Source of the DNA: Sulfuricurvum sp. | Lineage (GTDB): Bacteria; Campylobacterota; Campylobacteria; Campylobacterales; Sulfurimonadaceae | Length of the DNA stretch: 64,000 nucleotides | Direction: 5' to 3' | Assembly: GCA_028714915.1 (NCBI GenBank) | Contig: JAQTLL010000001.1 | Span: 186,001 to 250,000, forward strand | Part shown: positions 3,308-60,709 of the stretch, piece by piece | Layout: each line of letters starts with the position of its first letter | How positions within the stretch are numbered: position 1 is the stretch's first letter | Translations under genes and position numbers: made by a program | Notes under the pieces: model-generated | What the model saw: only the letters and a program-made list of their open reading frames with translations | Told to the model about the DNA's origin: nothing | Database searches by the model: none

Positions 3308-3324
3308 GCTTCCGTCGCCTAAAA
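3302..3324. terminator. Bidirectional terminator between convergent genes
   Basis: A perfect 8-bp inverted repeat, TTTTAGGC and GCCTAAAA, with a 7-nt loop. The T-rich and A-rich arms give a U-tract in either direction. It overlaps the receptor stop codon and lies just before the end of the convergent M23 peptidase gene, so it can serve both. Confidence 0.7.
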
Positions 3325-4512
3325 TGCTTTCACTTTAAACGACTCTTTATCTACATAATAGGTATCTTGGAAATCATATCCTCGACGTTTAAGTGGTTTG
3401 GTACGCAATTTTTCATTAAAAATACGGTCCAATTTGCTACGAATCGCAACAAAAGCCCTCTGTTCTTTACCGCTAAACCCTTCAGTTTTTTTCTTCATAA
3501 CTCCAATCGGATTAATGGGTGTACTCCCATCGTACATTCCAAAATGCAAATGGGGACCCGATGAAAGTCCGGATGAACCGACAAAACCGATAAGTTCTCC
3601 TTGTTTTACGCTTGACCCGACATGAATTCCCGGCTTGAACCCTCTTTGATGGGCATAAAGGCTGGTAAGTCCATTGGAATGACGAATTTTAATGGTTTTT
3701 CCATATCCGTTTGAATAACCGACGAAACACACACGTCCATCACCCGTAGACAAAATCTGCGTCCCCGGACGAGCTCCAAAATCTACTCCCACATGGGCAC
3801 GATAGCGATGCAAAACGGGGTGATACCGACTCTTCGTAAATCCAGATGTTATCCGTGCATTACGAATAGGGAGTTTGAAAATAAATTTTTCAAACTGAGC
3901 TCCCTTGGTATCGTAAAAACGCCCGTCACTATGACGATAAAGGGCATAACGTACTCCTCCGATTTCAATCATTGCACCCGAAACTTCAGGCATTGAAAAA
4001 AGCTTTCCCTGACGATATTTTTGCTCATAGACAATAACAAGAGGTTCTCCTGATTTAAGGTCTTTTTTGAAATTCACCCGCCCATTAAACATCTTTACAA
4101 AGATTGAAGCCAAATTTTTAGACCCGGTAGCTTTAAGAATGTCATCATAAGGAACACTGTTAATTTGTGTATAAAGCACTTCTTTGTAGCTCTCACTGAT
4201 AATAGGGATAACACGCATACTGTAACGGTTTTTGGGAGTTAAATAAATTTGAAGCTGAAGCTCATCATTGACAGGAACAAGGATTTGCTTGATGGTATTT
4301 TTAGAGCTTATCAACATCTGGCAATTAGCGGCGTAGGGAATATCTTCGGTAAGTTTTTGATCCTCTTTATCCATATTGTAATAAAGAGCCAGAGGGAGTT
4401 TTTTATGTTCTAAAAAGGTGAGAAAACTCTCTCCATTATTCCATTTAAACGGTTTGACTTGTGATGCAAAAATCAAAATGGGTAACACTAAAAATAGAAA
4501 TATTCGACCCAT
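3319..4512 (-). CDS. csd3: M23 family peptidoglycan peptidase, Csd3/HdpA-like
   Basis: The 397-residue protein has an N-terminal hydrophobic export signal (FLFLVLPILIFAS), an inhibitory-type N-terminal region and a C-terminal LytM/M23 zinc domain. Expected metal ligands are in HVGVDFG (His240, Asp244) and GPHLHFG (His321, His323). Length and architecture match Helicobacter pylori Csd3/HdpA, a D,D-endopeptidase/carboxypeptidase that shapes the cell in the periplasm. The order M23 peptidase, pgbA-like, glcD is the same around that gene in H. pylori. I chose ATG at 4512 because AAGGA lies 5 nt upstream; an ATG two codons earlier overlaps this ribosome site. Confidence 0.85.
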   Translation of the reverse strand: MGRIFLFLVLPILIFASQVKPFKWNNGESFLTFLEHKKLPLALYYNMDKEDQKLTEDIPYAANCQMLISSKNTIKQILVPVNDELQLQIYLTPKNRYSMRVIPIISESYKEVLYTQINSVPYDDILKATGSKNLASIFVKMFNGRVNFKKDLKSGEPLVIVYEQKYRQGKLFSMPEVSGAMIEIGGVRYALYRHSDGRFYDTKGAQFEKFIFKLPIRNARITSGFTKSRYHPVLHRYRAHVGVDFGARPGTQILSTGDGRVCFVGYSNGYGKTIKIRHSNGLTSLYAHQRGFKPGIHVGSSVKQGELIGFVGSSGLSSGPHLHFGMYDGSTPINPIGVMKKKTEGFSGKEQRAFVAIRSKLDRIFNEKLRTKPLKRRGYDFQDTYYVDKESFKVKAF

Positions 4513-19319: not shown

Positions 19320-19431
19320 CGTCATTCTCGGACTTCACGTGCCCTTTAGGGTAGATCCGGGAATCCATCTTTAAAAAAGAGCTGAATTTACCCGCAAGGG
19401 GCACAATACCCGCCTTTTTACGAGAATGACG
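19320..19431. repeat. Long dispersed mosaic repeat, copy 1
   Basis: A 112-bp element with perfect 11-bp terminal inverted repeats CGTCATTCTCG and CGAGAATGACG. Its interior shares the block CTTCACGTGCCCTTTAGGG and GATCCGGGAATCCATCT with the copies at 20812-20927 and 33949-34039. It fills most of the gap between cheZ and the U32 gene. Confidence 0.85.
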
Positions 19432-33948: not shown

Positions 33949-34039
33949 CGTCATCCTCGGACTTCACGTGCCCTTTAGGGTAGATCCGGGAATCCATCTC
34001 CGAAAAGAAAGCTGGATTCCCGCCTACGCGGGAATGACG
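33949..34039. repeat. Long dispersed mosaic repeat, copy 3
   Basis: A 91-bp element between uvrB and dedA with CGTCATCCTCGG at the left, the shared CTTCACGTGCCCTTTAGGG core, and a right half GGATTCCCGCCTACGCGGG forming a hairpin. It probably ends uvrB transcripts. Confidence 0.85.
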
Positions 34040-44254: not shown

Positions 44255-44716
44255 ATGAAACGTAGCGCGTTTACCCTTATCGAATTGATCTTTACGATCG
44301 TTATCATCGGTGTTTTAGCAGCCGTTGCAGTACCAAAGTTCAAAAATTTGAAGCAAAATGCTGAAGTAAAAGCAGTTATTAAAAATACGGTTGATACGGG
44401 CAGTGGTGCTGTAAGTGCAGCGGTCAATAAAAGCGATTTGGATGAGAATACTTCATACGAATTAAAAGATATAGTTGACTTGAGCGGTAAGGGATGGACG
44501 TATACATCGGGTGCAAATGCGGGCTCATATACTTATATAACAACAACGGGTACGGTATCGACAATTACTTTTGATCGTGCTGCTCGTACCGTATATTACG
44601 GTATTGATTGTGATAATTTTGCTGATGCATCAGGTACTAGTAAAGCCTTATGTTTAAAAGATTTGAATGTATCATCTATCAGCGGTGTAGATTTTAATAA
44701 AACCATTAGCTATTAA
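44255..44716 (+). CDS. Type IV pilin, likely major MSHA-type pilin
   Basis: The 153-residue prepilin has the leader MKRSA, then FTLIELIFTIVIIGVLAAVAVPKF, with Glu5. A cysteine pair near the C-terminus (GIDCDNF and KALCLKD) frames a D-loop as in type IVa major pilins. AGGAG precedes the start. It is the first gene of the MSHA locus and 7 nt before a second pilin. Best candidate for MshA, but which of the two forms the fibre is not shown by the sequence. Confidence 0.8.
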   Translation: MKRSAFTLIELIFTIVIIGVLAAVAVPKFKNLKQNAEVKAVIKNTVDTGSGAVSAAVNKSDLDENTSYELKDIVDLSGKGWTYTSGANAGSYTYITTTGTVSTITFDRAARTVYYGIDCDNFADASGTSKALCLKDLNVSSISGVDFNKTISY

Positions 44717-44723
44717 TCGATAA

Positions 44724-45203
44724 ATGAAACGCTCAACTCATTCAGGTTTTACCCTCATTGAGCTGATCTTCGTTATCGTCATCATCGGGGTTCTCTCGGC
44801 GGTGGCAATCCCCAAATTTGCCAACCTCACTGACAACTCCAAAATCGCTTCCGAGCTTGCTACCGCTTCATCAGTCCAAAGTGCACTTGATGCCATTCAC
44901 GGTGAATGGATCACCAATACCTGTGCTTTTGATTGGGGAAACGGACAAAATACCGCTACAAATCCCTTGAATGCTACCGGTTATCCCACAGCCCTTGGGG
45001 CAAGCAACGCCACTCCGCTCAATTACATCCTCAAAAATACGGAAAATGGGGATTGGGTACAGGTTGGAACTAAATATTACGGTCCCGCGACGAAAAACGG
45101 AACAAGCACCAAAAACCGCAATATCGCCAATAAGCCAGAGGGGGATGATTATTGGGATTATAATGCAACGGCAGGAACGTTTATCCTTCACGACACGCCG
45201 TAA
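44724..45203 (+). CDS. Type IV pilin-like protein of the MSHA locus
   Basis: The 159-residue prepilin has the leader MKRSTHSG, then FTLIELIFVIVIIGVLSAVAIPKF. It has a single Cys, many Asn, Thr and Gly, and no disulfide loop, so it differs from the pilin upstream. It may be a second major or a minor pilin (MshA/MshB type). Confidence 0.78.
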   Translation: MKRSTHSGFTLIELIFVIVIIGVLSAVAIPKFANLTDNSKIASELATASSVQSALDAIHGEWITNTCAFDWGNGQNTATNPLNATGYPTALGASNATPLNYILKNTENGDWVQVGTKYYGPATKNGTSTKNRNIANKPEGDDYWDYNATAGTFILHDTP

Positions 45204-45261
45204 TATTCGCCCCTCGCTTCCACTCAAGAAACTATTTTACCGATATTAGGTCAAAGTGTAT

Positions 45262-45342: not shown

Positions 45343-48300
45343 ATGAAAAAGGTTTTAATCTTAATGATGATTTTTTTTAATCTTTCTCTTTATGCTGCAG
45401 TAACATGCTCAAATTTTAAGAAGCAAAGTACTTGTGAAAATCATACAGAATGCAGGTGGGATACTATTATCCTTTTTATCGGCACATGTACTGATAACGC
45501 ATCCCCAGTCGCAAACGATGACATGGCGGCTACTTTTAAAAACTCTTCCGTTACCATCGATGTAACGATAAATGATACCGATGATGTAAGCATCAACAAG
45601 ACGACGGTAACCATTGTAGATCAACCTACCAACGGAATTGTCAGCGTCAATTCTACAACCGGTGTCGTAACGTATACGTCTAACAGTACTTTCACCGGGG
45701 ATACTTTTACCTATACTGTCAAAGATAATAATGGCGCACTCTCCAATACCGCAACCGTAACCATCACAGAGATCCTACCTATTGCCGACTATCATTTGGA
45801 TGAATGCGTCTGGAATGGGGTAGCCGGAGAAGTCAAAGACAGCGGTCCCAGTGGTTTGCACGCAATTGCTATAAATGGCGCAACCATTGATACAGGGAAA
45901 GTGTGCAAAAGCGGAAAATTTGACGGAACCAATGATTACGTTGATGTTGGGAATGTTTTAAATCCACTTAGTAGCAGCTGGAGTGTCAGTGTCTGGTTTA
46001 AGTGGAATGGAAAAGGCGGCGATAACATCATCTACAACAAAGAAAACCTTTATGAAGCCAGAGTATCGGGAGGATACTTTCAGTACGCCTGGATGCCTCA
46101 TTGGAATTGGGATGGGGGCACCAGTTTTCCGGTTACTCAGGATACTTGGTATCATGCAGTTGTAACCTATGACGGTATTACCCAAAAAGTCTATAAAGAC
46201 GGCGTAAAAGTTTATGAGAGAGCCCAAAGCGGAGCTATTGGAACCAATACCAATAAGCTTCTTATGGGAGCCAGAGGCTCTGGGAGCCCTGGCAGTTTTT
46301 TCGGTGGAAATATTGATGAAGTTCAAATATTTGACATGGCTCTGACTGCTGAAGAAATAACAAGTCTCTACAGCAATGAATCTACAGGAAAAAATTATAA
46401 CGGTACGGAGAGGGTGTGTTCAAACTGCGTCTCTAATATCAATGTTATTGAAGGTGACAGCGGTACTACCAATGCACTATTTACCCTGGCATTAGGGAAA
46501 CCTGTCAGCTCTTTAACAACTATCGATTATGCTACGGCAGACGGCACAGCAACCGTAGCAAATAACGACTACAATGAGACCCATGGAACCATTTCTTTTG
46601 CTGCCGGAGAGCAAACCAAAACAGTTACCGTAACCATAAACGGTGATTTGACATTTGAACAGGATGAAACTTTCAAGCTGATTTTATCAAATCCCACAAA
46701 CGGACTATCCATAAACAGTGAAGTAATCGGAACGATTATAAATGATGACATTCACTTCGCAGCCGACTATCATTTGGATGAATGCGTCTGGAATGGGGTA
46801 GCCGGAGAAGTCAAAGACAGCGGTCCCAGTGGTTTGCACGCAATTGCTATAAATGGCGCAACCATTGATACAGGGAAAGTGTGCAAAAGCGGAAAATTTG
46901 ACGGAACCAATGATTACGTTGATGTTGGGAATGTTTTAAATCCACTTAGTAGCAGCTGGAGTGTCAGTGTCTGGTTTAAGTGGAATGGAAAAGGCGGCGA
47001 TAACATCATCTACAACAAAGAAAACCTTTATGAAGCCAGAGTATCGGGAGGATACTTTCAGTACGCCTGGATGCCTCATTGGAATTGGGATGGGGGCACC
47101 AGTTTTCCGGTTACTCAGGATACTTGGTATCATGCAGTTGTAACCTATGACGGTATTACCCAAAAAGTCTATAAAGACGGCGTAAAAGTTTATGAGAGAG
47201 CCCAAAGCGGAGCTATTGGAACCAATACCAATAAGCTTCTTATGGGAGCCAGAGGCTCTGGGAGCCCTGGCAGTTTTTTCGGTGGAAATATTGATGAAGT
47301 TCAAATATTTGACATGGCTCTGACTGCTGAAAAAGTAATGAGTCTCTACAATAATGAAGCCGCAGGAAAGAATTATGATGGCAGTGGAAGAACATGTAGC
47401 AGTTGCCTCATTGCCGACTATCATTTAGATGAATGCGTCTGGAACGGTACGAGCGGAGAGGTAAAAGACAGCAGTGGAAACAATCTCAATGGAACAGCAT
47501 TCAACGGAGCGACAACCTTCAGTCCTGGCGAAAATGGATTTTATCGAGACGGTAATTTTACCAATTCTACCGATTATGTAGATTTAGGTCACCCGGACCT
47601 AGGTTTAGGCAATGCACTAACAGTTATGGGATGGATCAATTGGCAAATTCCACCTAGCACTGGCAACTCGTGGAGTAATATTCTCTCATATAATTCATCA
47701 ACGGTTTCAGACAGTCACCCTTTTGTATTACAACATAGTTCTAATAATAGCAAATACGAATTTGCCGTCACGACAGGGACCAATACCCGTAAATATGTCA
47801 CATCTTCGATCTCTACCCAGCAAAACGTTTGGCAGCACATTACAGGTGTTTACGATGGAAATACCCTCAAGATTTATGTTAACGGAAGCGATGCTTCCGC
47901 CAGCACTGTCACACAAACAGGGACCATTATGATTCCTCCGGCAAATGCCAAACTCGAAATTGGACAATGGGCTCTTTCAAGTTCTTCGAGAAATTTTAAT
48001 GGCTATCTCGACGAAATTAAAATTTTTAACGGCGCACTAACCTCGATTCAAATCAATAATATCTATAATTACGAAAAGGACGGTAAAAATTATGACGGTA
48101 CGCCGCGTGATCCTATCGTATGCATGCCTCCAGTGTCTCCAAACTGCACTACTTTCACCTATAATCTCTACCACCCCTTAAGTATAACCAACAAACTTCA
48201 AACCCGTATTGCGCAACAAGCGTTCGATCTCAATGTCACCGCTGCATGCAACAGTACCGGTGCAATCCCCTCGCGCAAAATCAAGAATATCTATGCTGTC

Positions 48301-49872
48301 AGCGGGACATGTCCTGTGGCAACAACCGGTTTACCGGTATTATGGACGGGATCGGCAGATATCAATGACACGGTTAAAACCATCACCCTCTCTAACCTCA
48401 ACAGCACCAAAGCTTATTCCAATATCAAACTCATGCTCGAAACCAACGCCAGCGAGCTCAATTGTTCCACCGATAATTTTGCCATTCGCCCCCCCTCTTT
48501 TAACATTACTTCTCCGCTAACCTCCGTTGCCGCAAATACTTTTACGTTGCAACTCTCTGCCCTCAACAGCGGCACCGGATACAATGGCACCGCAAACGTA
48601 ACAACAGCCCTCCAAACCCCCAATGCAAATTGTCCGACAGCCAGCGGCTTTTTAAAATCAAGCTTGGGAGCAGCAGAACCTCTCTCTATTCTATTTCAGA
48701 GTGATACCAATTCCTCCCAGATGAAAGCGACAGACGTAGGGGGAATTTATCTCAACGTGAAAGATTCCAATTGGACAACCGTGGATCAGCCGGCAAGCGA
48801 GTGTGTTGCCGGCAGTAATTCAACCATACTGAATGGACAAGGCTTAGTCGGCTGCAATATCGACAACAATCTCTCTTTAACCATCAAACCTGACCATTTT
48901 GACCTCAACGCCACCCTTTCCAACGCCGTAACCGGATTTACCTATCTCTCCACCGATCTCAATATGTCAGCACGTCTTGATCTCAATGTCACCGCCAAAA
49001 CAGCGGATGGAAATACGACGAAAAATTACAATTCGGGATGCTATGCGAAACCGACAAATTACACCATCAGTTACACTGCCCCCACCATCACCCCATCCGC
49101 CAATCTCACCAAACTAAATTATCTTGAGACCAATACCTCCACATCCGGTAATGTTGCTACGACGACAAATACTTTTAGTCTCACTGCTCTGCCCAAAATC
49201 ATCTTCGGAAGCGATACAAACGGTTCGGCAAATCTCAGTATCAAACTCAATTTTGATCGCAGCAACTCCTTGAGCGTCAATCCGTTTGATCTCAATATTA
49301 CCTCCGCCGTTGCTACCGATACCGACAGCGTAACCGGAAATGATACAACGGTCGGAAATGCCACCTTCGTTTACGGTCGAGTACGTGCGTATAATATCAC
49401 CACCAACGAAGCGTCTGCCCCCAATCCGGTCGAGTTCGAAGTGTACAGTACTACCTCCAGCGGATATGTGAGCGGTATGCCTCAAAATGTCCTCAAATGG
49501 TACCGCAACCTAAATCATGACAGTACCGTGGAAGGCAATATTATAAAAGGTGGGTTTAGTGCCGGAGCAAACGATGTCAACGTCAGTACCGCCGTTGCAC
49601 CGCAAAACGGTATTCAAAATGTCACCGTCACCTCATCCGTTGATAAAACCGTCCATCTCGACATCAGTTCGTGGTTATGGTATTCTCTCAATCCTGCAAA
49701 GATTTATAATTATGGGACTGATTGTACCCAGCATCCCTGTTTTATCTATGATTACACCGATACAACGATAACCTCAGTAAAAGGGGTCAGCAGCGGTACC
49801 TTCGGTGGAACCGATTTTACGATGACGCCGGCAAATAATATTATCAAGAAAGGGGTAAAAGTCTTTCGATGA
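45343..49872 (+). CDS. mshQ: MshQ-like giant multidomain adhesin with LamG domains
   Basis: The 1509-residue protein has a signal peptide (MKKVLILMMIFFNLSLYAA), a cadherin/Ig-like domain (about 53-146), LamG domain 1 (148-337), a Calx-beta domain (363-471), LamG domain 2 (474-663), LamG domain 3 (about 689-916), and a C-terminal region like the end of MSHA biogenesis protein MshQ (about 926-1509). LamG 1 and 2 are identical in protein and DNA. LamG and Calx-beta domains bind sugars, proteins or calcium, so a surface or pilus-tip adhesin is inferred. ATG at 45343 was chosen for its signal peptide and AGAAGGA site. The stop overlaps the next pilin gene (ATGA). Confidence 0.8.
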   Translation: MKKVLILMMIFFNLSLYAAVTCSNFKKQSTCENHTECRWDTIILFIGTCTDNASPVANDDMAATFKNSSVTIDVTINDTDDVSINKTTVTIVDQPTNGIVSVNSTTGVVTYTSNSTFTGDTFTYTVKDNNGALSNTATVTITEILPIADYHLDECVWNGVAGEVKDSGPSGLHAIAINGATIDTGKVCKSGKFDGTNDYVDVGNVLNPLSSSWSVSVWFKWNGKGGDNIIYNKENLYEARVSGGYFQYAWMPHWNWDGGTSFPVTQDTWYHAVVTYDGITQKVYKDGVKVYERAQSGAIGTNTNKLLMGARGSGSPGSFFGGNIDEVQIFDMALTAEEITSLYSNESTGKNYNGTERVCSNCVSNINVIEGDSGTTNALFTLALGKPVSSLTTIDYATADGTATVANNDYNETHGTISFAAGEQTKTVTVTINGDLTFEQDETFKLILSNPTNGLSINSEVIGTIINDDIHFAADYHLDECVWNGVAGEVKDSGPSGLHAIAINGATIDTGKVCKSGKFDGTNDYVDVGNVLNPLSSSWSVSVWFKWNGKGGDNIIYNKENLYEARVSGGYFQYAWMPHWNWDGGTSFPVTQDTWYHAVVTYDGITQKVYKDGVKVYERAQSGAIGTNTNKLLMGARGSGSPGSFFGGNIDEVQIFDMALTAEKVMSLYNNEAAGKNYDGSGRTCSSCLIADYHLDECVWNGTSGEVKDSSGNNLNGTAFNGATTFSPGENGFYRDGNFTNSTDYVDLGHPDLGLGNALTVMGWINWQIPPSTGNSWSNILSYNSSTVSDSHPFVLQHSSNNSKYEFAVTTGTNTRKYVTSSISTQQNVWQHITGVYDGNTLKIYVNGSDASASTVTQTGTIMIPPANAKLEIGQWALSSSSRNFNGYLDEIKIFNGALTSIQINNIYNYEKDGKNYDGTPRDPIVCMPPVSPNCTTFTYNLYHPLSITNKLQTRIAQQAFDLNVTAACNSTGAIPSRKIKNIYAVSGTCPVATTGLPVLWTGSADINDTVKTITLSNLNSTKAYSNIKLMLETNASELNCSTDNFAIRPPSFNITSPLTSVAANTFTLQLSALNSGTGYNGTANVTTALQTPNANCPTASGFLKSSLGAAEPLSILFQSDTNSSQMKATDVGGIYLNVKDSNWTTVDQPASECVAGSNSTILNGQGLVGCNIDNNLSLTIKPDHFDLNATLSNAVTGFTYLSTDLNMSARLDLNVTAKTADGNTTKNYNSGCYAKPTNYTISYTAPTITPSANLTKLNYLETNTSTSGNVATTTNTFSLTALPKIIFGSDTNGSANLSIKLNFDRSNSLSVNPFDLNITSAVATDTDSVTGNDTTVGNATFVYGRVRAYNITTNEASAPNPVEFEVYSTTSSGYVSGMPQNVLKWYRNLNHDSTVEGNIIKGGFSAGANDVNVSTAVAPQNGIQNVTVTSSVDKTVHLDISSWLWYSLNPAKIYNYGTDCTQHPCFIYDYTDTTITSVKGVSSGTFGGTDFTMTPANNIIKKGVKVFR
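45784..46353 (+). repeat. Perfect 570-bp direct repeat, copy 1 (LamG 1)
   Basis: Identical base for base to 46762-47331, including synonymous positions, with sharp borders at both ends. The repeat period is 978 bp, or 326 codons. Confidence 0.95.
46762..47331 (+). repeat. Perfect 570-bp direct repeat, copy 2 (LamG 2)
   Basis: Second copy of the LamG segment. A third, diverged LamG domain begins at about 47407 with nearly the same first 30 bases. Confidence 0.95.
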
Positions 49873-50513
49873 GAAAAGCCCTGACCCTGATTGAATTAAT
49901 CTTGTCCATGATGATCATCGGGATCGTCTTTACCGTCATTCCCCGTCTCGTGCAGTCGATGAACCAAAGTGCTCAAGTGACAGTCAAAGAGGAAGCGATG
50001 TACAACGCCATGACACAGATGGGTCAAATTATCAATCTCCCGTGGGATAATGGCAATACCCAAAATCCTCAAATTCTCAGTGTGACCAACGGAGTCACTG
50101 CGTATGATTGCAACACCACAAGCGGGTATCGCATCGGCGGCTTCATCGGGGGGCGCAACTGCATCGGAACTCCCCTCAGCGCCTCTACCGTCATAGGAAG
50201 AGAGGATGCCGAATACAATGATGTCGATGATTTTCACGATGCCAATATCTCCGCTGATAAAAACTGCTCCGGTGTCGTCAAAGGGATTTACCAAATCGGT
50301 ACTACCATAACCTATGTCGATGACCCTGCAAGCGTAGGAAATGCGACGCTCAATACCGCTCCCAAAGCGGCAAACCAATCTTCCAATACCAAGCGGGTAT
50401 TAGTTCGTGTCGGATACGGACCGGACAGCAAACTCAGCGGCTGTATCACCTCTCTCGAATATCACTCCTTTAATATCGGACATATTCAGATCAACTCACG
50501 GCCTTGGAACTGA
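49869..50513 (+). CDS. mshD: MSHA minor pilin, MshD/PilV-like
   Basis: The 214-residue protein has the leader MRKA, then LTLIELILSMMIIGIVFTVIP, with Glu5 and a non-aromatic residue at position 1. A Cys-rich central part (AYDCNTTSG, GRNCIGT, KNCSGV) follows. Length and position before the MshO-like gene fit MshD. It overlaps mshQ by 4 bp and shares one base with the next gene. Confidence 0.7.
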   Translation: MRKALTLIELILSMMIIGIVFTVIPRLVQSMNQSAQVTVKEEAMYNAMTQMGQIINLPWDNGNTQNPQILSVTNGVTAYDCNTTSGYRIGGFIGGRNCIGTPLSASTVIGREDAEYNDVDDFHDANISADKNCSGVVKGIYQIGTTITYVDDPASVGNATLNTAPKAANQSSNTKRVLVRVGYGPDSKLSGCITSLEYHSFNIGHIQINSRPWN

Positions 50514-51394
50514 TGAAACGCCCTGGATTTACCCTCATCGAAATCATCATCACCGTTGCAATTACGGGGATTCTCTCAGTCGGGATGTTCAAAGCGTTCG
50601 AGGCGATCACCCTGCGAAGCGAAAAAGCAAAAATTCTCAGTACCCTCTCGATCGATTCCCAAAGTGCCCTCGATCAAATCAGCATCCTCCTCTATAACCG
50701 CGCCCCCATGTCAGTCAGCGGGTACAATCTAGGGGATGCTGCTCGCACTTCGCTGGATTCCTCCACCAACAAAAAAATTATCGAATGGCTCGGTCTTGCC
50801 AGTGAGAGCTACGAAACAGGAGATTACAGCAGTTTTGTCGATATGAACCGTTCCGATTATGCAAGCAAAACACTCTATACTCCCGACACCAATGTTGCCG
50901 CCATTCAAACGACGCAAACCGCCAAATGGGGAAGTTTTAGCTGGAATAATATGGCATTGATTTTTTCGGGGACATTTGATGAGGGGAACTCCGCTACCTA
51001 TCCCATCAGTATGAGTACCAATAATCAAATCGTTATCACCGGTACCCCTGCTACGATCTATGAGAAGTACAATCTTATTGATTCTGCCTATGCCGTTGCT
51101 CGCGGTGCCGACATTGACCAAACGGCAAGCTGCATCACTGCCTTGGGACTAAGTGCTTCGGCTTTGGATAACACCCTGTTCCTCTTTTACGATTACCGTC
51201 CGTGGAAAACACCTACGGAGAGTTTTTGTGCCGACAGTGCAAATCGAATCGGTAAAGTGAGTATCCTTGCAACGAACATCAATGCCTTTCGTGCCCAAAC
51301 GATTAACGGTACTATCCGCCTTTCACTCGACGTGAACCGTACAGTTCGCGGAGGCAATCCGGTACGGCTATCCAAACAAAAGGTGGTGTTCTGA
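50513..51394 (+). CDS. mshO: MSHA minor pilin, MshO/PilW-like
   Basis: The 293-residue protein has the leader MKRPG, then FTLIEIIITVAITGILSVGMF. Its size matches PilW/GspJ-type pseudopilins. I chose ATG at 50513 (TGATG overlap with the previous stop), because it gives a leader of normal length; a TTG three codons upstream is less likely. Confidence 0.72.
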   Translation: MKRPGFTLIEIIITVAITGILSVGMFKAFEAITLRSEKAKILSTLSIDSQSALDQISILLYNRAPMSVSGYNLGDAARTSLDSSTNKKIIEWLGLASESYETGDYSSFVDMNRSDYASKTLYTPDTNVAAIQTTQTAKWGSFSWNNMALIFSGTFDEGNSATYPISMSTNNQIVITGTPATIYEKYNLIDSAYAVARGADIDQTASCITALGLSASALDNTLFLFYDYRPWKTPTESFCADSANRIGKVSILATNINAFRAQTINGTIRLSLDVNRTVRGGNPVRLSKQKVVF

Positions 51395-51831
51395 TGCGTC
51401 ACGCCTTCGGTCTCCCCCAAGTACTCCTCATCATCCTCTTTATCGGGGGAATTGTCAGTGTCACCATGCGCTATGCAAGTTTAGGGGCAAAACATTATGC
51501 CGACAGCTATACCCGTGAGCAGGCCGAATTATTTTTACAAAGCGCAGCGGAGGCAACCCTCTTACGTATCAGTGCCTATAATCGTAGCAGCGGCGGGTGC
51601 ATGAGTGATCTCAATATTACCTCATCCGATGGTCGTTTTAATGCCGTTGTCACCATAGAGCGCTATTACCTTGCCGATGGGACTGCGTGCAATAACGTGG
51701 CATATACACCCATCCAATCCGAAGAATCTCATGGGATGGTCAGTATGAAAGTTGTCGTCACTTCTGATAATACAAATACTAAAATCCTCCATCCTATCCG
51801 ATTAGAGCGAAGGAGCTTGCAACGCCCATGA
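51394..51831 (+). CDS. mshP: MSHA minor pilin-like protein, MshP/PilX position
   Basis: The 145-residue protein starts MRHA, then FGLPQVLLIILFIGGIVSV. Glu5 is replaced by Gln and Pro is at position 4, as in tip-type pseudopilins that lack Glu5. Position after the MshO-like gene and size fit MshP. It overlaps both neighbours by one to four bases. Confidence 0.65.
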   Translation: MRHAFGLPQVLLIILFIGGIVSVTMRYASLGAKHYADSYTREQAELFLQSAAEATLLRISAYNRSSGGCMSDLNITSSDGRFNAVVTIERYYLADGTACNNVAYTPIQSEESHGMVSMKVVVTSDNTNTKILHPIRLERRSLQRP

Positions 51832-52271
51832 GACATGCTTTTTCATTGATCGAACTTATCTTTGTCATTGTCCTCATCGGAGTCCTCACCGGTATCGGTT
51901 TTTATATGAGCCGCCCTGATTATGCCCGCCAAGATGCCCAATACACCCTCCTCAAACTCAAGGAGGCACGCTATCGTGCCATGGGATACGATGCCCTTGA
52001 TACGGCGGGATGTGTTACTCTGACCCCTACTGCCCTTTCCAGCAGTGATGAAGCTCCCCGTCACGACATCAAATCGACCATGACTATTACCCCTAATACG
52101 GTGAGCACAGTCTGTTTTGATGCTCTCGGGCGTCCGCATGACGGCAATTCGATCGCATTAGGGACCCTTATGCAAACAGAAATAACTATTTTATTTCAAA
52201 ATAGTGATAAAAACAGCACAATTCGTGTTTTTCCGCAAACAGGTTATGCTATAATCCCTTGCAATAATTAA
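51828..52271 (+). CDS. mshC: MSHA minor pilin, MshC/GspH-FimT-like
   Basis: The 147-residue protein has the leader MRHA, then FSLIELIFVIVLIGVLTGIGF, and a GspH/FimT-like segment (KLKEARYRAMGYDALDTAGC). A cysteine pair is in STVCFDALG and IIPCNN. It overlaps the previous gene (ATGA). An extended -10 promoter sits in its last codons. Confidence 0.7.
   Translation: MRHAFSLIELIFVIVLIGVLTGIGFYMSRPDYARQDAQYTLLKLKEARYRAMGYDALDTAGCVTLTPTALSSSDEAPRHDIKSTMTITPNTVSTVCFDALGRPHDGNSIALGTLMQTEITILFQNSDKNSTIRVFPQTGYAIIPCNN
52247..52255 (+). promoter_or_regulatory. Extended -10 promoter before mshI
   Basis: TGCTATAAT inside the end of the preceding gene, 46 bp before the mshI start. It could drive the assembly genes apart from the pilin genes. 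Confidence 0.45.
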
Positions 52272-52300: not shown

Positions 52301-53788
52301 ATGACCAAAAACGTGGTAAGCAGGGCAATGGAACACCAAAAAAATCTTTTTATAGAGCATGATCGGCTTCGCACCTACCAAGAGAGCGGATTTGAAGAGT
52401 GCACGCCGCGTGAACTCAAATCGCTCCCCTCCAGTGCAATCGTACCTCTTTCATTGCTTGCTATTCACACCCTAAAACTCTCTGATAGTCTCAGTGATGA
52501 AGAGCTCAGACTCCAAGTCGAGATTCGGATGTATGAAGAGGGGAACCTCAATAGTGACGAAGAGTACACAATCGATTTTATCCGACATCACATCAATAAT
52601 GATAGTGACGCCCTCGTCGAAGTATTTGCCCTCTCTCACTCTAAAGCACGTGATTATTTTAGCGAGATGCTTACTAAAACTGGGGCTATAGATATTATCA
52701 CCCCTGGATTTATGGTGTACGGATCACTGTATGACACTCTTCCAAAAGGGAATGATCTTTTCATCTATTGGGGAGAAGAAGAGTCGTATGGCGTTATCTA
52801 CCAAGAGGGTCGATACATCGCTCACCGAGGGATTGAAACTCTCACCTCGATCGCTGTTGAGACGGGGCTGGATCTTGCTAAACTCAAACAGTACCTCTAC
52901 ACCAAAGGGCTTATCGAAGAAAATTACCTCCCCGAAGAGCTCAACAAATTTATCCTTCTTCAAGAGAGAGTTGCCAAAAATATTGAACGGCTTGTTCATA
53001 CAATCAACCATAAGAGGGGTCTCTTCGGTCTCACCGGTATCGATCACGTTTATCTCGATTTTGAGGGAGAAAGTATCCCTGGATTAGAGACGGTTTTCTC
53101 TGCTTACGGTATCGCGGACACCAAAATAATTCCCCTTACTCTTCCCAACGTCACCCCTGTACAATTCCATGAAACGCTGTGTGCTTCGTATCTTTTACAG
53201 GTTCAATCCCCTCTCAACCTTTCCCCGTTTGCCCGAAAAGCTCCATGGTATCACAGAGAGAGCGGAAAGTTTTTAGCATTTGGCGGGGGGGCAATGCTCC
53301 TTGTTTTGATTATATCTTTATGTGTAGCGTGGATGATCTCCTCAGAAGAGACACGGAAAGAAGAACTGACTGCCAAGCTCGAGACGTTACACAAAGAGAC
53401 CGCAAGCCTCTCAGTCATACTGAAAAAAAACAGTCTCCTTTTAGCAGAGCAACAAAGTAAGAACAAGGCTGTACAAGAGGAGATCACCCTCTATCATGCC
53501 GCAGAAGAGACCGCGGCATTGATCGATGATATGCACAGTAAACGACAGCAGTTTTTACTCGATACCACCGCCGAACTGGGTCGATACCGCTTGGGGGCGA
53601 TGCTGATGGAACAAAACAGCTCAAAACAGATGAGCCTCCTCGTCGTTTCTGACTATCGCAAGCGCGATGACATCGCCAAACTGATGAGTGGGTTGTATGC
53701 GCGCGGATACCAAGATGTCCAAACCCATGAAATCAAACTGGATAACAACAATACAACCTATAACAGTCTTGTGAAGGTGACACGATGA
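52301..53788 (+). CDS. mshI: MSHA assembly protein MshI (PilM/PilN-like)
   Basis: The 495-residue protein has an actin-like PilM/GspL-type N-terminal domain (about 1-310), one membrane helix near 325-348 (LAFGGGAMLLVLIISLCVAWM), a periplasmic coiled coil (about 352-410) and a PilN-like C-terminus. It forms the inner-membrane assembly platform with MshJ. The start ATG at 52301 has only a weak ribosome site; MEHQKN nine codons later is an alternative. Confidence 0.72.
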   Translation: MTKNVVSRAMEHQKNLFIEHDRLRTYQESGFEECTPRELKSLPSSAIVPLSLLAIHTLKLSDSLSDEELRLQVEIRMYEEGNLNSDEEYTIDFIRHHINNDSDALVEVFALSHSKARDYFSEMLTKTGAIDIITPGFMVYGSLYDTLPKGNDLFIYWGEEESYGVIYQEGRYIAHRGIETLTSIAVETGLDLAKLKQYLYTKGLIEENYLPEELNKFILLQERVAKNIERLVHTINHKRGLFGLTGIDHVYLDFEGESIPGLETVFSAYGIADTKIIPLTLPNVTPVQFHETLCASYLLQVQSPLNLSPFARKAPWYHRESGKFLAFGGGAMLLVLIISLCVAWMISSEETRKEELTAKLETLHKETASLSVILKKNSLLLAEQQSKNKAVQEEITLYHAAEETAALIDDMHSKRQQFLLDTTAELGRYRLGAMLMEQNSSKQMSLLVVSDYRKRDDIAKLMSGLYARGYQDVQTHEIKLDNNNTTYNSLVKVTR

Positions 53789-54414
53789 GTGGATTCGAAG
53801 ACCAACTCGACAATCTGGATGAACAGCTCCTCGGCTATGAGCCAAAAATACGATGGGCGCTTTATGCAGCAACTGCTCTAGGTATTTTAGTGATGGGATG
53901 GATGTTCTATCTCTCTGATTCACTGGATGAGCTGAGTGTGTTAGAAGAGCAAAACAGCGTTTTGGTACATCAGATCGCCGAAAACTCTCCCGAAGCATAC
54001 CGTGCCAAAATTTCCAAAAGCTCGGCAGCTATTGTCACGGAAGAACAGCGCGGTATTGTCCTTGAAAACGAAAAACACGCTTTGCTTCTCCAAATGGCTG
54101 CTACACAAGGGCTCATCTTCGACAATCGTCACTACGCCAAAATGTTGGATTTACTCTTGGAACGCTCTGTCAGATTGGGGCTTAAAATTGAATTGATGGA
54201 GTCCGAAGATACCGATAAAGCGTTTTTTGGGAAGGTTAAACAGTTCAAAAAACTTACCGTAACCGGAACAGGCAGTTTCCCAGCTGTCGCCGATTTCCTC
54301 ACCTTTCTCGAATCACAAAATACTCTGGTACAAATAGAGAGTGTCCAAATCCGATCCGATGAGGAAAAGCCCCGTTTCGTAGCCGTGATCCTCTATATGG
54401 GGGTCGCATTATGA
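53785..54414 (+). CDS. mshJ: MSHA assembly protein MshJ (PilO-like)
   Basis: The 209-residue protein has one membrane helix (about 25-44), a coiled-coil stretch (LEEQNSVLVHQIAEN), and a PilO-like ferredoxin fold with FPAVADFLTFLESQNTLVQIESVQI. It overlaps mshI and mshK by 4 bp each (ATGA). Confidence 0.75.
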   Translation: MSGFEDQLDNLDEQLLGYEPKIRWALYAATALGILVMGWMFYLSDSLDELSVLEEQNSVLVHQIAENSPEAYRAKISKSSAAIVTEEQRGIVLENEKHALLLQMAATQGLIFDNRHYAKMLDLLLERSVRLGLKIELMESEDTDKAFFGKVKQFKKLTVTGTGSFPAVADFLTFLESQNTLVQIESVQIRSDEEKPRFVAVILYMGVAL

Positions 54415-54761
54415 ATAAACTGACGACTTGGATTATTGTATGCGTATGTTCTTCCCATCTGGTACATGCACAGATGTACGATCCGTTTCACAAAACTGCA
54501 AAACCCCGTGCGGCATCAATATCAGGTCTTTTACCGCCTCCACTGATGGTGATACCGGAAATACCGCAGACGGTGGTAAGTGCTGTTATGAACAATAAAG
54601 CTTTTATCAACGGGGCATGGTACGGTGTTGGTGATCGGGTCAATAACCATGAAGTAACGTATATCCAAAATAATTTTGTCGGCCTTAAAGAAGGCAATCG
54701 ACTCACTATGATCGCTGTCGGCGGAACACGCCGCGTGCTCGGTACCAAGGAAGTTCCATGA
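54411..54761 (+). CDS. mshK: MSHA assembly protein MshK (PilP-like)
   Basis: The 116-residue exported protein (signal MNKLTTWIIVCVCSSHLVHA) has the MshK/PilP pattern: MYDPFHKT near the N-terminus, a proline-rich linker (LLPPPLMVIPEIP) and a small beta domain (AFINGAWYGVGDRVN; LTMIAVGGTRRVL). It connects the MshI-J platform to the secretin. It overlaps mshL by 4 bp. Confidence 0.75.
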   Translation: MNKLTTWIIVCVCSSHLVHAQMYDPFHKTAKPRAASISGLLPPPLMVIPEIPQTVVSAVMNNKAFINGAWYGVGDRVNNHEVTYIQNNFVGLKEGNRLTMIAVGGTRRVLGTKEVP

Positions 54762-56278
54762 AAAAAATTGTATCCCTTTTACTCCTCCTGTTGACATTAC
54801 TAAACGCACAAGAGTGTGACAACAAACGTTTCAGCCTCAGTGCCTATCAAAACCGAGGCTCTGCCTTGACCTTGATGGATCTATTGCGCGATGTTGGCCA
54901 AACCTGTCATATCAGTGTCGTGCTCGAAGATAAACGGGCAAAAGAGAAACTTTCTCAGCCGCTGGATATGGTTAATATCAGCGATTACACCCTCCCGGAA
55001 CTCTTTACGTTTATCTTTGATGAACATAACCTTTTTTATACGTACGATGAGGGGCAAAGAGTGATTCGTACCTCTTATGCCAAGACGGTCAATTTTAATG
55101 TTGACTACATCAATATGAACGTCCTCACGACCACCTCATCCAAATCGATCACGGTGGGACCGGGAGCCAGCAGCACTACATCCGGCACTGGCGGTAGCAC
55201 AAGTGGAGGTATGGTCGGCACAAGCAGCGGTAGCGGTTCATCCTCAGGAGCGGGTTCTCAGGGGAGCGGTTCAAATACTGACTACACAAACGTCCGTGCC
55301 ACGTCAACGTTTACCTTTTGGGACCAGCTGCACGACAATATTCAGCAAATTTTACAAGTCGATGATGAGTACAACGAAGCAATCAATAAAACCCTCGTCA
55401 ATCGTGATGCAACTGTTGTCACCGTCTCAGGAACCAAACGCCAAGTTGATTCAGTCAAACGCTACTTGGACAAACTTGAATCGCGTATGCACTCTCAGGT
55501 GATGATTGAAGCATACCTAATCGAGCTCACCTACAATGATTACAACACAACGGGTGTGAACTGGAGTAATTTTGCCCTTTCCCTCAATGGAAGTTATGCT
55601 TCAAGTATCAATAATATCGGTGCAGCCAGCCCCGTTTATTCTTTTGGTATGAATTTTGATCCCTTGGGGATGATCGATTTCCTTCGTCGTTATGGTGATG
55701 TCGAAGTTCTTTCAAATCCAAAAGTATTGACACTCAGCAATCAGCCCGCTGTTATCAACGTTGGTAAACAGTTGAGTTATCTTTATGAAAATGGCTCCAT
55801 TGCCTCATCCAATACTCTAACAAATGCTACGACCACTAAAACATTGGGTTCCGTCTTTGTCGGGCTAACGCTTAATATTATTCCCGAAGTGACCGAAGAT
55901 GGTTATATCATCATGCGGATCAATCCGGTATCGAGTGAACTCCTGGGGGAAGACAACAACGCGTCCAATTTCGACGGCTCGAACGTTGTAAGCAGTAATC
56001 GAACGATGCCTCCCGATACCCGTGTCAAACAGATGACTTCGATCGTTAAAGTAAAAGATTCTCAAAAAGTACTAATCGGTGGTCTGATCGAGAAAAAAAC
56101 CTATACGTACGATAATAAAGTTCCCGTTTTAGGTGATATTCCGCTTTTAGGAAGACTCTTCCACGGCTCAAAAGCATCAACACGTAAAAGCGAACTTTTC
56201 ATCCTGATTACCCCGACCCTGATCAAAAAAGATATATTTCCCTCTATCGATGATGCCATTTTGAAGCGGTTTAACTAA
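54758..56278 (+). CDS. mshL: MSHA secretin MshL
   Basis: The 506-residue outer-membrane secretin has a signal peptide (about 1-18), a short N-terminal secretin domain, a Ser/Gly-rich low-complexity segment (about 131-178) and a C-terminal secretin domain with VEVLSNPKVLTLSNQPAVINVG and VPVLGDIPLLGRLFHG. It forms the pore for the pilus. The low-complexity segment lies where other MshL proteins also have a flexible linker. Confidence 0.9.
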   Translation: MKKIVSLLLLLLTLLNAQECDNKRFSLSAYQNRGSALTLMDLLRDVGQTCHISVVLEDKRAKEKLSQPLDMVNISDYTLPELFTFIFDEHNLFYTYDEGQRVIRTSYAKTVNFNVDYINMNVLTTTSSKSITVGPGASSTTSGTGGSTSGGMVGTSSGSGSSSGAGSQGSGSNTDYTNVRATSTFTFWDQLHDNIQQILQVDDEYNEAINKTLVNRDATVVTVSGTKRQVDSVKRYLDKLESRMHSQVMIEAYLIELTYNDYNTTGVNWSNFALSLNGSYASSINNIGAASPVYSFGMNFDPLGMIDFLRRYGDVEVLSNPKVLTLSNQPAVINVGKQLSYLYENGSIASSNTLTNATTTKTLGSVFVGLTLNIIPEVTEDGYIIMRINPVSSELLGEDNNASNFDGSNVVSSNRTMPPDTRVKQMTSIVKVKDSQKVLIGGLIEKKTYTYDNKVPVLGDIPLLGRLFHGSKASTRKSELFILITPTLIKKDIFPSIDDAILKRFN

Positions 56279-56279
56279 G

Positions 56280-57074
56280 ATGTCACAATGGCTGGAAGCG
56301 GCAAATAAATTTGAAGAGCGCCGAGATAGCAATGATTATTTTGAGGTACAAGGCTCACTTGGGGCAATTGAAAAGATAAAAACTCTCCTTGGCGGGACAT
56401 TTCGCCAGCTTATCTTTCTTCTTGGTGAGCCGGGAAGCGGGAAAAGTTTTTTGTTGTATCACCTCAAAACAATATGGGGAGAAGAGCGAGACATCTTACT
56501 GATCGAAACTCCTTTTCTCACACCGCTGGATCTCTTAAAAAAACTGCTGCACCATAAAGGGATCGGTGTTGAGAATAATGATTTCGAACAGCTTCGCTTG
56601 ATGGCAACCCAGCTCTACGCCAACAGCAATCACCTGATAATGATCGATGAAGCTCAACTGCTCAGCTCCGAGATGAAAGAATTTATCCGTATTCTCAGCG
56701 ACTCCAAGGCATTTTGGTTTATCCTTGCAATGCACCGCAGTGAAGGGGAAGTGATATTACGGGCTCCCCATTTTAAAAGCCGTCCGCATCGGATTATTGA
56801 TCTCTCTGCTATCAATCCGATCGAAGGAAAAAACTATATCTACCGCGAATTGCTACGAATAGGATTCTCTGAAATTACCGAGGAATTGACTCCTAAACTC
56901 ATTACAAAAGCACACCAAATCAGTCAAGGAAATTTTCGTAATTTCAAAAAAATTTTTTACCATCTATTCCACTTGCTTCACTACACGAACACCCACAATA
57001 AAACAAAATACTTGCGTCCCTCATCGTGTATGATAACCATGGCGGCAATGAGTGCGGAGCTCCTTCATGATTGA
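56280..57074 (+). CDS. mshM: MSHA ATPase MshM (ExeA-like AAA)
   Basis: The 264-residue ATPase has Walker A GEPGSGKSF (residues 49-57), Walker B LIMIDEAQLL, and the ExeA-family pattern of Arg-rich sensor regions. It lacks the long periplasmic tail of ExeA. It probably assists secretin or pilus assembly. Begins 1 nt after the mshL stop and overlaps mshN by 8 bp. Confidence 0.8.
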   Translation: MSQWLEAANKFEERRDSNDYFEVQGSLGAIEKIKTLLGGTFRQLIFLLGEPGSGKSFLLYHLKTIWGEERDILLIETPFLTPLDLLKKLLHHKGIGVENNDFEQLRLMATQLYANSNHLIMIDEAQLLSSEMKEFIRILSDSKAFWFILAMHRSEGEVILRAPHFKSRPHRIIDLSAINPIEGKNYIYRELLRIGFSEITEELTPKLITKAHQISQGNFRNFKKIFYHLFHLLHYTNTHNKTKYLRPSSCMITMAAMSAELLHD

Positions 57075-57783
57075 TAATTTTGATCTGCTTGTACAGCGCT
57101 GCAGTGCCAGATACCGTGCTCGGATGATCCGCCTTTCATTGTTTATTGTAGGGACGATACTCTTAGTGCTTGCCTCAATCTCAGGGTATATACTATGGTC
57201 ATCACCTACTCCTGCCCCCGTTGTCCAAAAACCGACTCAAAAGCCACAAAAGATTATCGTTACTACTGCACCTGTTGTACCCGTTCAAGTAACCGAGTTG
57301 AACACAAGTGTCCAACCGCTCCCAAACAAACCGATAACAGCAACAGTTTTGACACCGCTCGTATCTCAGCCTCTCACTCCGCAGCCAGTTGTACCGGTCA
57401 AGAGCACACCCATCCCCGCACAAGTCCAAAATGAAGTGATTAAACCGCAAAACAGTCACCTTTTTGAAGTAAATACCCAATCTAAAACTACTGTTCTCGA
57501 TCCGTCAACTACTTTTAATAACAGTCCTAAGTACGAAACTGCCCTTACGATAGCACGTGACTTTTACACTAAAAACGAGTTTTCCGATGCGGCAGTTTGG
57601 GCAAAAAAAGCCAATCAGATGAATCGCGAAGGGGAAGAGGCATGGCTGTTATATGCTAAATCGTATTATGCCCAAGGGCGCAAAAATGAAGCAATCGGGG
57701 TTTTAGAACTCTATATGAACTACAAAGATTCCAAAGCGGCATCCGAATTGCTCCGCACATGGAAACAAACCCCCGTAAACTAA
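57067..57783 (+). CDS. mshN: MSHA protein MshN (TPR-containing, membrane-anchored)
   Basis: The 238-residue protein has one membrane helix (about 24-43), a Pro/Gln/Val-rich linker of about 100 residues and a C-terminal pair of TPR-like repeats (YETALTIARDFYTKNEFSDAA; AWLLYAKSYYAQGRKNEAI). ATG at 57067 was chosen because GGAG lies 7 nt upstream. The linker suggests a periplasm-spanning role. Confidence 0.72.
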   Translation: MIDNFDLLVQRCSARYRARMIRLSLFIVGTILLVLASISGYILWSSPTPAPVVQKPTQKPQKIIVTTAPVVPVQVTELNTSVQPLPNKPITATVLTPLVSQPLTPQPVVPVKSTPIPAQVQNEVIKPQNSHLFEVNTQSKTTVLDPSTTFNNSPKYETALTIARDFYTKNEFSDAAVWAKKANQMNREGEEAWLLYAKSYYAQGRKNEAIGVLELYMNYKDSKAASELLRTWKQTPVN

Positions 57784-57793
57784 GGAGAAGAGG

Positions 57794-59470
57794 ATGATTC
57801 GTCAACAGGTTCGATTAGGAGACTTGCTTATTTCTGAGGGTCTCATCTCTCAAGAACAACTCGAATATGCTCTCCAAGAACAAAAAAACTCCGGATTTTC
57901 AAAAAAACTCGGGGAAGTACTCGTCGATGAAGGGATGATCTCACACAAAGAGATGGCGCTACTCCTCTCCAAACAGCTAAAAATCGACTTTGTTGACCTT
58001 TTCGGTGAAAAAATAGATTTTAACTCTTTGTCTAAATTCTCTATGCCTCTGCTTATTTCAGCCAAAGCAATCCCATTCAAAGAGGACGAGGATTACGTCT
58101 ACGTTGCAACCTCCGATCCTCTAAATTTTGACGCTCTTGAGTCACTTGAACGTAATATTGCGACCAAACCTCTCAAAGTCTATCTCTCTATGAGCGAAGA
58201 TATTGCCCATATTTTTCAGCGTCTGGAAATCATCAAAAAAACTCAAACTATTGCGGCAGAGGTAAAAAAAGAGATAAACAACGAAGGGTCAAAGGGGGGT
58301 GAGGGGGATGCGAGTGCTGTCATGCAACTTATCAGCCTCATTATCAAAGATGCCGTATTGCGTCGTGCCAGCGACCTGCACATTGAACCGGAGCTGCGAT
58401 CCATGTCAGTACGCACCCGTGTGGACGGAATCTTGCAAGAGACCTTTGTCTTTGATCTCGATATCTACACGGCTCTCAATTCACGGATCAAACTACTAGG
58501 AAATCTCGATATTTCTGAACGTCGTAAAGCACAAGACGGTCGTTTCAGCCTCGAAGTTTCCGGGGGTAAATATGATTTTCGTCTCTCAACCACTCCAACA
58601 CTGTTCGGCGAATCGATTGTTATGCGGATACTCGATCAGCAAAAAATTCTCCTCAAACTTCATGAACTCGGATTTGAAGGTAAAAATTTAGAGAAATTTG
58701 ACGAAATCATCCATGCTCCTTTCGGAATCGTCCTCATCACAGGACCCACCGGAAGCGGAAAAACCACTACCCTCTATGCCGCCCTTAATGAGGTCAAAAG
58801 CATCGAGAATAAAGTGCTCACCATTGAAGATCCGATCGAATACCAGCTCCCTCTCGTCCAGCAGGTACAGGTCAACGAACGGGTAGGATTTGGATTTTTA
58901 GAAGCACTTAAATCGTTCTTGCGTCAAGATCCCGATATTATCCTCGTCGGTGAAATTCGCGATTTTGAAACTCTTAATTCGGCGGCGCAAGCTTCGCTTA
59001 CCGGGCATCTCGTATTTTCAACACTGCATACCAATGATGCAGCCAGCGCAATCGGACGGATGATACAAATGGGATTACAGTCATACCTGATCGCCGATTC
59101 ACTGGTCGGAATTGTCGCTCAACGATTGGTGCGTAAAATTTGTACCGAGTGCAAAAGTGAAACCAAACCGCATAAAAATTTATTACGCAAAGTAGAGCGA
59201 TGGATCGGTGAAAATGCTAAATTTTATGCCGGAAAAGGGTGCTCAAAATGTTCTAACACAGGATATTTTGGGCGATTGCTTATTTCTGAAATTCTTGTGG
59301 TGAACGAAACAATCGCAAAAATGGTTGCCGAGGAGTCATCCAAATATGATATTGCCCGCTATGCCCAAGAAAATGAAGGATTTGAACCCATGATCGTAGA
59401 TGGGCTTAGCAAAGTATTGCGTGGGATTACGACCCTCGATGAAATCCTGCGTGTGACCAAGGAGCAATAG
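57794..59470 (+). CDS. mshE: MSHA extension ATPase MshE (GspE/PilB type)
   Basis: The 558-residue ATPase has an N-terminal MshEN domain with two tandem motifs (RLGDLLISEGLISQEQLEYAL from residue 7 and KLGEVLVDEGMISHKEMALLL), the c-di-GMP-binding element known from Vibrio MshE. Then come the Asp-box region, Walker A GPTGSGKTTTLY (from residue 317), Walker B DPDIILVGEIRD and a tetracysteine zinc site (CTECK; GCSKCSN). It powers pilus extension. GGAGAAGAGG precedes the start. Confidence 0.92.
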   Translation: MIRQQVRLGDLLISEGLISQEQLEYALQEQKNSGFSKKLGEVLVDEGMISHKEMALLLSKQLKIDFVDLFGEKIDFNSLSKFSMPLLISAKAIPFKEDEDYVYVATSDPLNFDALESLERNIATKPLKVYLSMSEDIAHIFQRLEIIKKTQTIAAEVKKEINNEGSKGGEGDASAVMQLISLIIKDAVLRRASDLHIEPELRSMSVRTRVDGILQETFVFDLDIYTALNSRIKLLGNLDISERRKAQDGRFSLEVSGGKYDFRLSTTPTLFGESIVMRILDQQKILLKLHELGFEGKNLEKFDEIIHAPFGIVLITGPTGSGKTTTLYAALNEVKSIENKVLTIEDPIEYQLPLVQQVQVNERVGFGFLEALKSFLRQDPDIILVGEIRDFETLNSAAQASLTGHLVFSTLHTNDAASAIGRMIQMGLQSYLIADSLVGIVAQRLVRKICTECKSETKPHKNLLRKVERWIGENAKFYAGKGCSKCSNTGYFGRLLISEILVVNETIAKMVAEESSKYDIARYAQENEGFEPMIVDGLSKVLRGITTLDEILRVTKEQ

Positions 59471-60709
59471 GTGAAATTTTTTCGGGTGCGCTACAAACAG
59501 GCAAAAAAACGCTCTTCAGTCACTTTTGAAGCCGTACATAAAGCCGAAGCACTTAAACTATTTCGCACTAAAAATTTAGGCGTTCCTTTAGAAGTTCAAG
59601 AGGTCTCCGAGCCGTTTAATATGAAATTCGAGCGGTTTAAAAAACGTTTTACCGACCCGATCCAAAACCGCCGGGTAAAAGATGAGCCTTATATTGCTTT
59701 TTTGGATCAACTCTCGACTATGCTCGATGCTGGAATGCCGATCAATACCTGTTTGGCGGAAAGTATCAGTGATACCCATGATCCAATGATACGTTCTATT
59801 TTTACGGAAGTCCTCCGCGATATTGAAAGCGGTCAAAGCCTCAGTCGTTCCGTTACCGGATTTCAGCGTCAAATCGGAACCCTTTCCCTTTCAATGTTTG
59901 AACTGGGAGAGCAGACCGGAACCCTCAGCAATGCCATCGCCAAACTCTCGATGATCTTGCAACAAATTCATGAAAACCGCCAAAAACTTAAAAAAGCGAC
60001 CCGTTATCCTCTTTTTATTCTAATCGCTATGAGTATAGCCTTTACCGTCGTTATCACGTTTGTCGTACCGCAATTTCAATCCTTCTTCGAACAATCAGGG
60101 ATGGAGCTCCCCTTTCCGACCAAACTGCTCTTATGGACGGAACACGCGATCAGAACGTATGGTCCCTATATTTTAACAGGGTCGATTATACTGGCAACGG
60201 CGTTTAGTATCGCCTATTCCAAATATCCCGCACTTCGTCTCAAGACCGATCAGTATATGCTTAAAATTTATATCGTCGGTAAAGTAACCTATTATGCGAT
60301 GATCGGTCGTTTTATCTATCTTTTCAACGTCCTCACCGAAGCAGGTATCCCTATGATAGAATCTTTACAGATCGCAATGGGGGTTGTTGAGAATGACTAT
60401 ATCCGACAAGAACTCAAAAAAATTCCTACCGCCATTGAAGACGGCCGATCACTGGCACAAGGATTTTCCGAAAGTGCTCAATTTGAGGGGATGATTTTAC
60501 AGATGATTAAAGCCGGAGAGAGCAGCGGATCCTTAGGGGTAATGCTAGGCAAAGTTAATCGTGTGTATAATAACCGCTATACTTATATCGTCGATAACGT
60601 CGCCACCCTTATAGAACCGATTCTCATTGCAGCGATAGCTGGATTTGTGTTGGTACTTGCGCTGGGTATTTTTATGCCGATGTGGTCAATGGTCGATATT
60701 GCAGGATAA
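59471..60709 (+). CDS. mshG: MSHA inner-membrane platform protein MshG (GspF/PilC type)
   Basis: The 412-residue protein has two GspF domains (AFLDQLSTMLDAGMPINTCLAE; YLFNVLTEAGIPMIESLQIA) and three membrane helices (about 175-197, 224-246, 376-400). It transmits ATPase movement to the pilus base. GTG start directly after the mshE stop with AGGAG 7 nt upstream. Confidence 0.9.
   Translation: MKFFRVRYKQAKKRSSVTFEAVHKAEALKLFRTKNLGVPLEVQEVSEPFNMKFERFKKRFTDPIQNRRVKDEPYIAFLDQLSTMLDAGMPINTCLAESISDTHDPMIRSIFTEVLRDIESGQSLSRSVTGFQRQIGTLSLSMFELGEQTGTLSNAIAKLSMILQQIHENRQKLKKATRYPLFILIAMSIAFTVVITFVVPQFQSFFEQSGMELPFPTKLLLWTEHAIRTYGPYILTGSIILATAFSIAYSKYPALRLKTDQYMLKIYIVGKVTYYAMIGRFIYLFNVLTEAGIPMIESLQIAMGVVENDYIRQELKKIPTAIEDGRSLAQGFSESAQFEGMILQMIKAGESSGSLGVMLGKVNRVYNNRYTYIVDNVATLIEPILIAAIAGFVLVLALGIFMPMWSMVDIAG

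Follow-up and report, generated by a model that had tools for sequence, protein, structure and literature searches.

How two non-neighbouring domains of one large protein come to share a long run of perfectly identical coding DNA is the question raised by a Sulfuricurvum locus that lies within the 64,000-nt stretch of DNA analysed here (the window).

The repeated tract and the gene that carries it

The perfect repeat described in the original prediction was reproduced exactly: positions 45784-46353 and 46762-47331 form a maximal exact repeat at an offset of 978 nt, which is exactly 570 nt, or 190 codons, in length. The offset corresponds to 326 codons, and the tract runs from a first codon position to a third one. 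The expectation that an exchange between the copies would preserve the frame was confirmed in silico, as the removal or addition of the 326 codons left the frame open and changed the predicted protein from 1509 aa to 1183 or 1835 aa, respectively. A survey of 450 kb of the contig gave only two direct repeats that are exact over more than 127 nt, the 570-nt pair being the longest and a 129-nt repeat the runner-up, and no inverted repeats of at least 40 nt were found in the same 450 kb. Since the third codon positions are identical over all 570 nt and the other exact repeats do not exceed 129 nt, a chance match or selection acting at the protein level alone was ruled out. The 129-nt repeat (spacing 115 nt) is located outside the window, at ~49,178 of contig C1 (L086), and its copy number is equally uncertain. 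In addition, a 44-nt exact intergenic repeat (19327-19370 and 33956-33999) was observed just 3' of two genes, where it makes up part of a REP-like palindrome (GTCATTC...GGGAATC / GATTCCCGCC...GGGAATGACG).

The mechanically called open reading frame around the tract begins with GTG at 45256. ATG 45343 is the likelier start, judging from its in-frame position, the purine-rich stretch upstream and the hydrophobic leader MKKVLILMMIFFNLSLYAA. The domain order of the encoded protein is Big_9, LamG1, Calx-beta, LamG2, LamG3 and a DUF6701-like region, and the gene and its surroundings comprise the following features.

44255-44716 and 44724-45203, + strand: two prepilin genes upstream (N_methyl and prepilin models)
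45343-49872, + strand: MshQ/DUF6701-like putative pilus-tip adhesin gene, 1509 aa from ATG 45343 (open reading frame and translation)
45496-45768, + strand: Big_9 bacterial Ig domain (Pfam PF17963, E 1.3e-12)
45781-46431, + strand: LamG1 cassette (Laminin_G_3 and local HMM)
45784-46353, + strand: identical tract, copy 1 (570 nt, 190 codons)
46354-46431, + strand: LamG1 tail, diverged from the LamG2 tail (51/78 nt)
46480-46710, + strand: Calx-beta, found once in the assembly (PF03160, E 3.9e-15, one stretch)
46762-47409, + strand: LamG2 cassette (Pfam and local HMM)
46762-47331, + strand: identical tract, copy 2 (exact repeat)
47332-47409, + strand: LamG2 tail (alignment to the LamG1 tail)
47410-48123, + strand: LamG3, directly adjoining LamG2 (34-38% aa identity to LamG1/2)
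48106-49869, + strand: conserved C-terminal DUF6701-like region (588 residues; matches in 26 of 41 genus genomes)
49869-50513, 50504-51394, 51394-51831 and 51828-52271, + strand: four short downstream open reading frames with prepilin-like N-termini (N_methyl in 50504-51394, the others by sequence)
52301-60709, + strand: MSHA-like assembly genes (GspM-like, weak; secretin; AAA; TPR; assembly ATPase with MshEN; GspF)

The LamG profile (PF13385, Laminin_G_3) matched the protein in three stretches at 7.5e-68. LamG3 is diverged, as had been predicted, and is 34% identical to the adjoining LamG2. An AlphaFold model computed from the LamG alignment was a jelly roll (pLDDT 79, pTM 0.84), and its best PDB matches by E-value were domain 4 of the arabinanase AbnA and other concanavalin A-like sandwiches. 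Although we are confident that the modelled fold is lectin-like, the match is generic and does not imply a ligand; matches to clostridial binding domains were set aside as the same generic jelly roll. A model of LamG1-LamG3 from the single sequence was discarded (pLDDT 31). The best NCBIfam match of the LamG regions was the TafC family fimbrial protein NF052521, but membership of this family was rejected (92.7 bits against a cut-off of 410), and the literature search found nothing that links TafC to pili or fimbriae.

The gene stands in an operon of MSHA type, with prepilins on both sides, a secretin for which MshL is the best model (234.8 bits; cut-off 250.2), an ATPase with MshEN and a GspF gene. 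The window protein itself does not match PF20419 (DUF6701), which we take to be the Pfam family of MshQ, whereas a homologue 52-54% identical to it (L036) does so with an E-value of 3.3e-13, above the cut-off. The adhesin label of the original prediction is thus reasonable as a putative function: a MshQ/DUF6701-like gene inside a MSHA-like pilus operon would reasonably code for a modular tip adhesin of a MSHA-like type IV pilus. The search for structural RNA within the 64-kb window gave no hits.

Origin of the identity and the number of units

The LamG domain extends 78 nt beyond the 570-nt tract, and there the two copies match at 51 of 78 positions and differ at 27, of which 12 are third codon positions. 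The claim that the LamG copies are identical including third positions was hence correct for the 570 nt and incorrect for the whole domain. Complete identity over 570 nt directly beside homologous DNA that has diverged to 51/78 is the pattern by which gene conversion is recognised. The Calx-beta domain occurs once in the assembly, so that 978 nt is a spacing and not a demonstrated repeat unit. Diverged tails and a single Calx-beta suggest that one of two older LamG cassettes was converted by the other, rather than that a unit was duplicated, and they do not support the part of the original prediction that spoke of a duplication with a 978-bp period, in the sense of a fresh tandem duplication. 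We consider that the identity probably stems from gene conversion inside the gene, or from a double exchange of equivalent effect, with two older LamG domains as the partners. In the window gene this is read from the edges of the tract only, and an orthologous pair for its LamGs was not found among the genomes compared.

According to this scenario, two diverged LamG domains would have flanked the Calx-beta domain beforehand, and the core of one would have been copied onto the other, in either direction. The converted tract would reach as far 5' as the homology does and end 78 nt short of its 3' limit, and the outcome would be an A-X-A layout, in which two identical lectin-like domains are not neighbours. 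More generally, LamG cassettes, carried on the conserved C-terminal part, would be swapped within the gene by homologous recombination. The genome carries recA, and a RecA-type crossover between the copies would shorten or lengthen the frame by 326 codons without disrupting it, so that variants differing in their number of LamG-Calx units are to be expected. The occurrence of such length variants of the putative adhesin within a population, as originally anticipated, is a fair prediction. Gene conversion itself is an ordinary mechanism; as the cause in this gene, it is what we infer from the data, together with the adhesin function and exchange in living populations.

The perfect identity over 570 nt would also be expected from a recent simple duplication, either of one LamG or of a 978-nt unit, with the tails diverging afterwards. 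However, the adjoining 78 homologous nucleotides carry 27 differences against none in 570; had the entire 648-nt domain been copied in one event and drifted evenly, all 27 would be confined to the final 78 nt with a probability of about 10^-27. As the Calx-beta is moreover single, tandem duplication of 978 nt was rejected, and we regard any simple duplication as most improbable. We give just as little weight to the insertion of a cassette from another strain or species in place of internal conversion. Sister species do carry different LamG cassettes at the same place, which speaks for such an exchange, but this genome holds no other close DNA match to the window LamG, matches within the genus do not exceed 39% aa identity, and copying within the gene is simpler. 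A third LamG donor besides LamG3 was not found in the same genome, and a plasmid search returned distant LamG proteins only.

The remaining alternatives concern the assembly. Contig ends in this genome share exact 127-nt overlaps, the signature of a k=127 short-read de Bruijn assembly. The lack of a 16S rRNA gene was discarded as a sign of short reads, since contigs C19-C21 are given as N. Bubble removal by the assembler may flatten scattered differences between copies, and the true identity is possibly slightly below 100%. The set of 127-mers at the locus is identical for one, two or three LamG-Calx units, and an allele without the unit adds none to it. Thus, the assembly shows at least one LamG-Calx unit and cannot show more units or a mixture, and the risk of assembly error raised in the original prediction is not only real but can be stated more sharply. 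Two contigs outside the window, C9 (37,176 nt) and C10 (16,459 nt), have ends that overlap themselves by exactly 127 nt, which suggests that they are complete circular molecules, perhaps plasmids or phages.

The exact 127-nt overlaps and the indistinguishable 127-mer sets leave room for a hidden tandem array, in which a series of identical 978-nt LamG-Calx units, closed by a LamG2 with the variant tail, was collapsed to one loop in the assembly; a LamG-Calx array whose last copy is a variant could be mistaken for the conversion scenario. Undercounting of this kind is documented in Yersinia ruckeri, where short-read genomes underestimate the identical Ilm repeats 4-5-fold (PMC6868369). Still, a positive sign of more than one unit is absent, and the differing tail of the second LamG would require a conversion or hybrid event in an array as well, so that we consider the array unlikely, though worth keeping in mind. 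The opposite error, a single such LamG in reality, is conceivable in a short-read assembly in which 570 nt exceeds k. Yet the loop requires a LamG core on either side of the Calx-beta and two contexts each upstream and downstream, the contig is free of Ns, and the same layout is found in an independent genome of another genus, all of which makes an artefact very improbable.

LamG copies and cassettes in related genomes

We compared the locus with 41 genomes of the genus, 33 homologous genus loci and 200 genomes sampled from the family, with one genome per species. A LamG of the window type was present in 37 of the 200 sampled family genomes, and the architectures of the relatives varied widely (LamG, cadherin, DUF11, PKD, Calx-beta and others). 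No comparable exact repeat was detected among the 33 genus loci, in which the best internal similarity was 91% over 259 nt. Most relatives with multiple LamGs are devoid of a long exact tract, and such tracts tend to break short-read contigs.

An A-X-A pattern with recent identity was observed in four genes, those of the window and of genomes G130, G044 and G078. In G130, which belongs to another genus, locus L159 (contig C52) contains a perfect 713-nt LamG pair (1520-2232 and 2957-3669) with an in-frame spacing of 1437 nt, and the pair surrounds a different LamG that is only 37% identical. This gene was not recovered with the DUF6701-region query, and the LamGs are the part in which its kinship to the window gene is seen. 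In G044, of a third genus, a 234-nt exact tract lies inside a LamG pair of 86% identity. The paralogues are 98-100% identical in the core, compared with 77-84% for the orthologues in G071, whereas at the edges the paralogues (42-61%) are less similar than the orthologues (60-72%). This reversal between core and edges is the standard mark of gene conversion. In the three genes with both copies fully assembled, another domain lies between the identical copies and adjoining LamGs are 22-37% identical. In G078 (L166, contig C70, 4183-4309) the contig breaks off after exactly 127 nt of the second LamG copy, which is a direct example of a LamG repeat breaking a short-read contig. Nine genes of relatives were broken by contig ends; a 127-mer in common with another contig was present only in those of G022 and G025, with no repeat beside it. 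Given these nine genes, contig breaks in relatives were not counted as proof of a repeat.

Variation between species was seen in both the number and the identity of the LamG cassettes. The loci of two sister Sulfuricurvum species, L034 (G027) and L035 (G025), mostly show 80-90% DNA identity in their flanks, and residues ~506-1085 of the G027 protein, including its LamG, represent a sharp replacement unrelated to the middle of the G025 protein. In the LamG tree, the LamG of G027 pairs with LamG2 of G022 and that of G025 with LamG1 of G022, both with 100/100 support. This pattern fits either differential loss from a LamG pair or the replacement of a cassette. The edges of the LamG domain are better conserved than its core (0.59 and 0.42-0.47 versus 0.13-0.36), and they could serve as seams that help exchange. 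A window-type LamG with in-frame stops (TGA, TAG) was found in G023 (contig C6, 21252-21851), possibly a decaying cassette.

Significance and comparison with known systems

It is possible, although we propose it only tentatively, that the LamG-bearing MshQ-like adhesins of Campylobacterota constitute a recombination-driven cassette system, in which LamG cores are repeatedly homogenised and swapped via conserved edges, identical copies stay separated by another domain in an A-X-A layout, and cells of one population differ in the number of lectin-like heads in a way hidden from short-read assemblies. If the pattern holds, a presumed pilus adhesin of free-living sulfur-oxidising bacteria alters its lectin-like heads by intragenic copying, and repeat counts in such genes are unreliable across most public short-read genomes.

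MshQ of Vibrio cholerae has been described as a putative MSHA adhesin (PMC7096442), and the length of MshQ varies among Shewanella strains (PMC7439477). The window protein resembles MshQ in being a large protein encoded among prepilins in a MSHA-like operon; it differs in that the Campylobacterota protein reaches PF20419 only via a homologue. The literature searched contained no case of conversion between LamGs within MshQ. The Ilm protein of Y. ruckeri is similar in having DNA-identical domain repeats that are miscounted by short reads (PMC6868369), but these are more than 20 tandem Ig-like repeats of ~300 bp in another protein family.

Among known phenomena, the variation of repeats in surface proteins of bacteria comes closest (PMC8201768). 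The Periscope Proteins (the SasG, Rib and Sgo_0707 class) likewise carry near-identical DNA repeats within a surface-protein gene, repeats of high DNA identity are considered to favour intragenic recombination, and recombination is expected to alter their length (PMC8201768). However, theirs are tandem stalk arrays, whereas the window gene has two non-neighbouring lectin-like copies in a MSHA-like pilus protein, the identical copies being separated by the Calx-beta and the adjoining LamG2 and LamG3 being dissimilar. Identical neighbouring domains have been proposed to misfold (PMC8201768), and the A-X-A layout is consistent with this idea and offers a direct test of it. The case described here is distinct from known repeat variation in its non-adjacent layout, its lectin-like domain and its pilus context.
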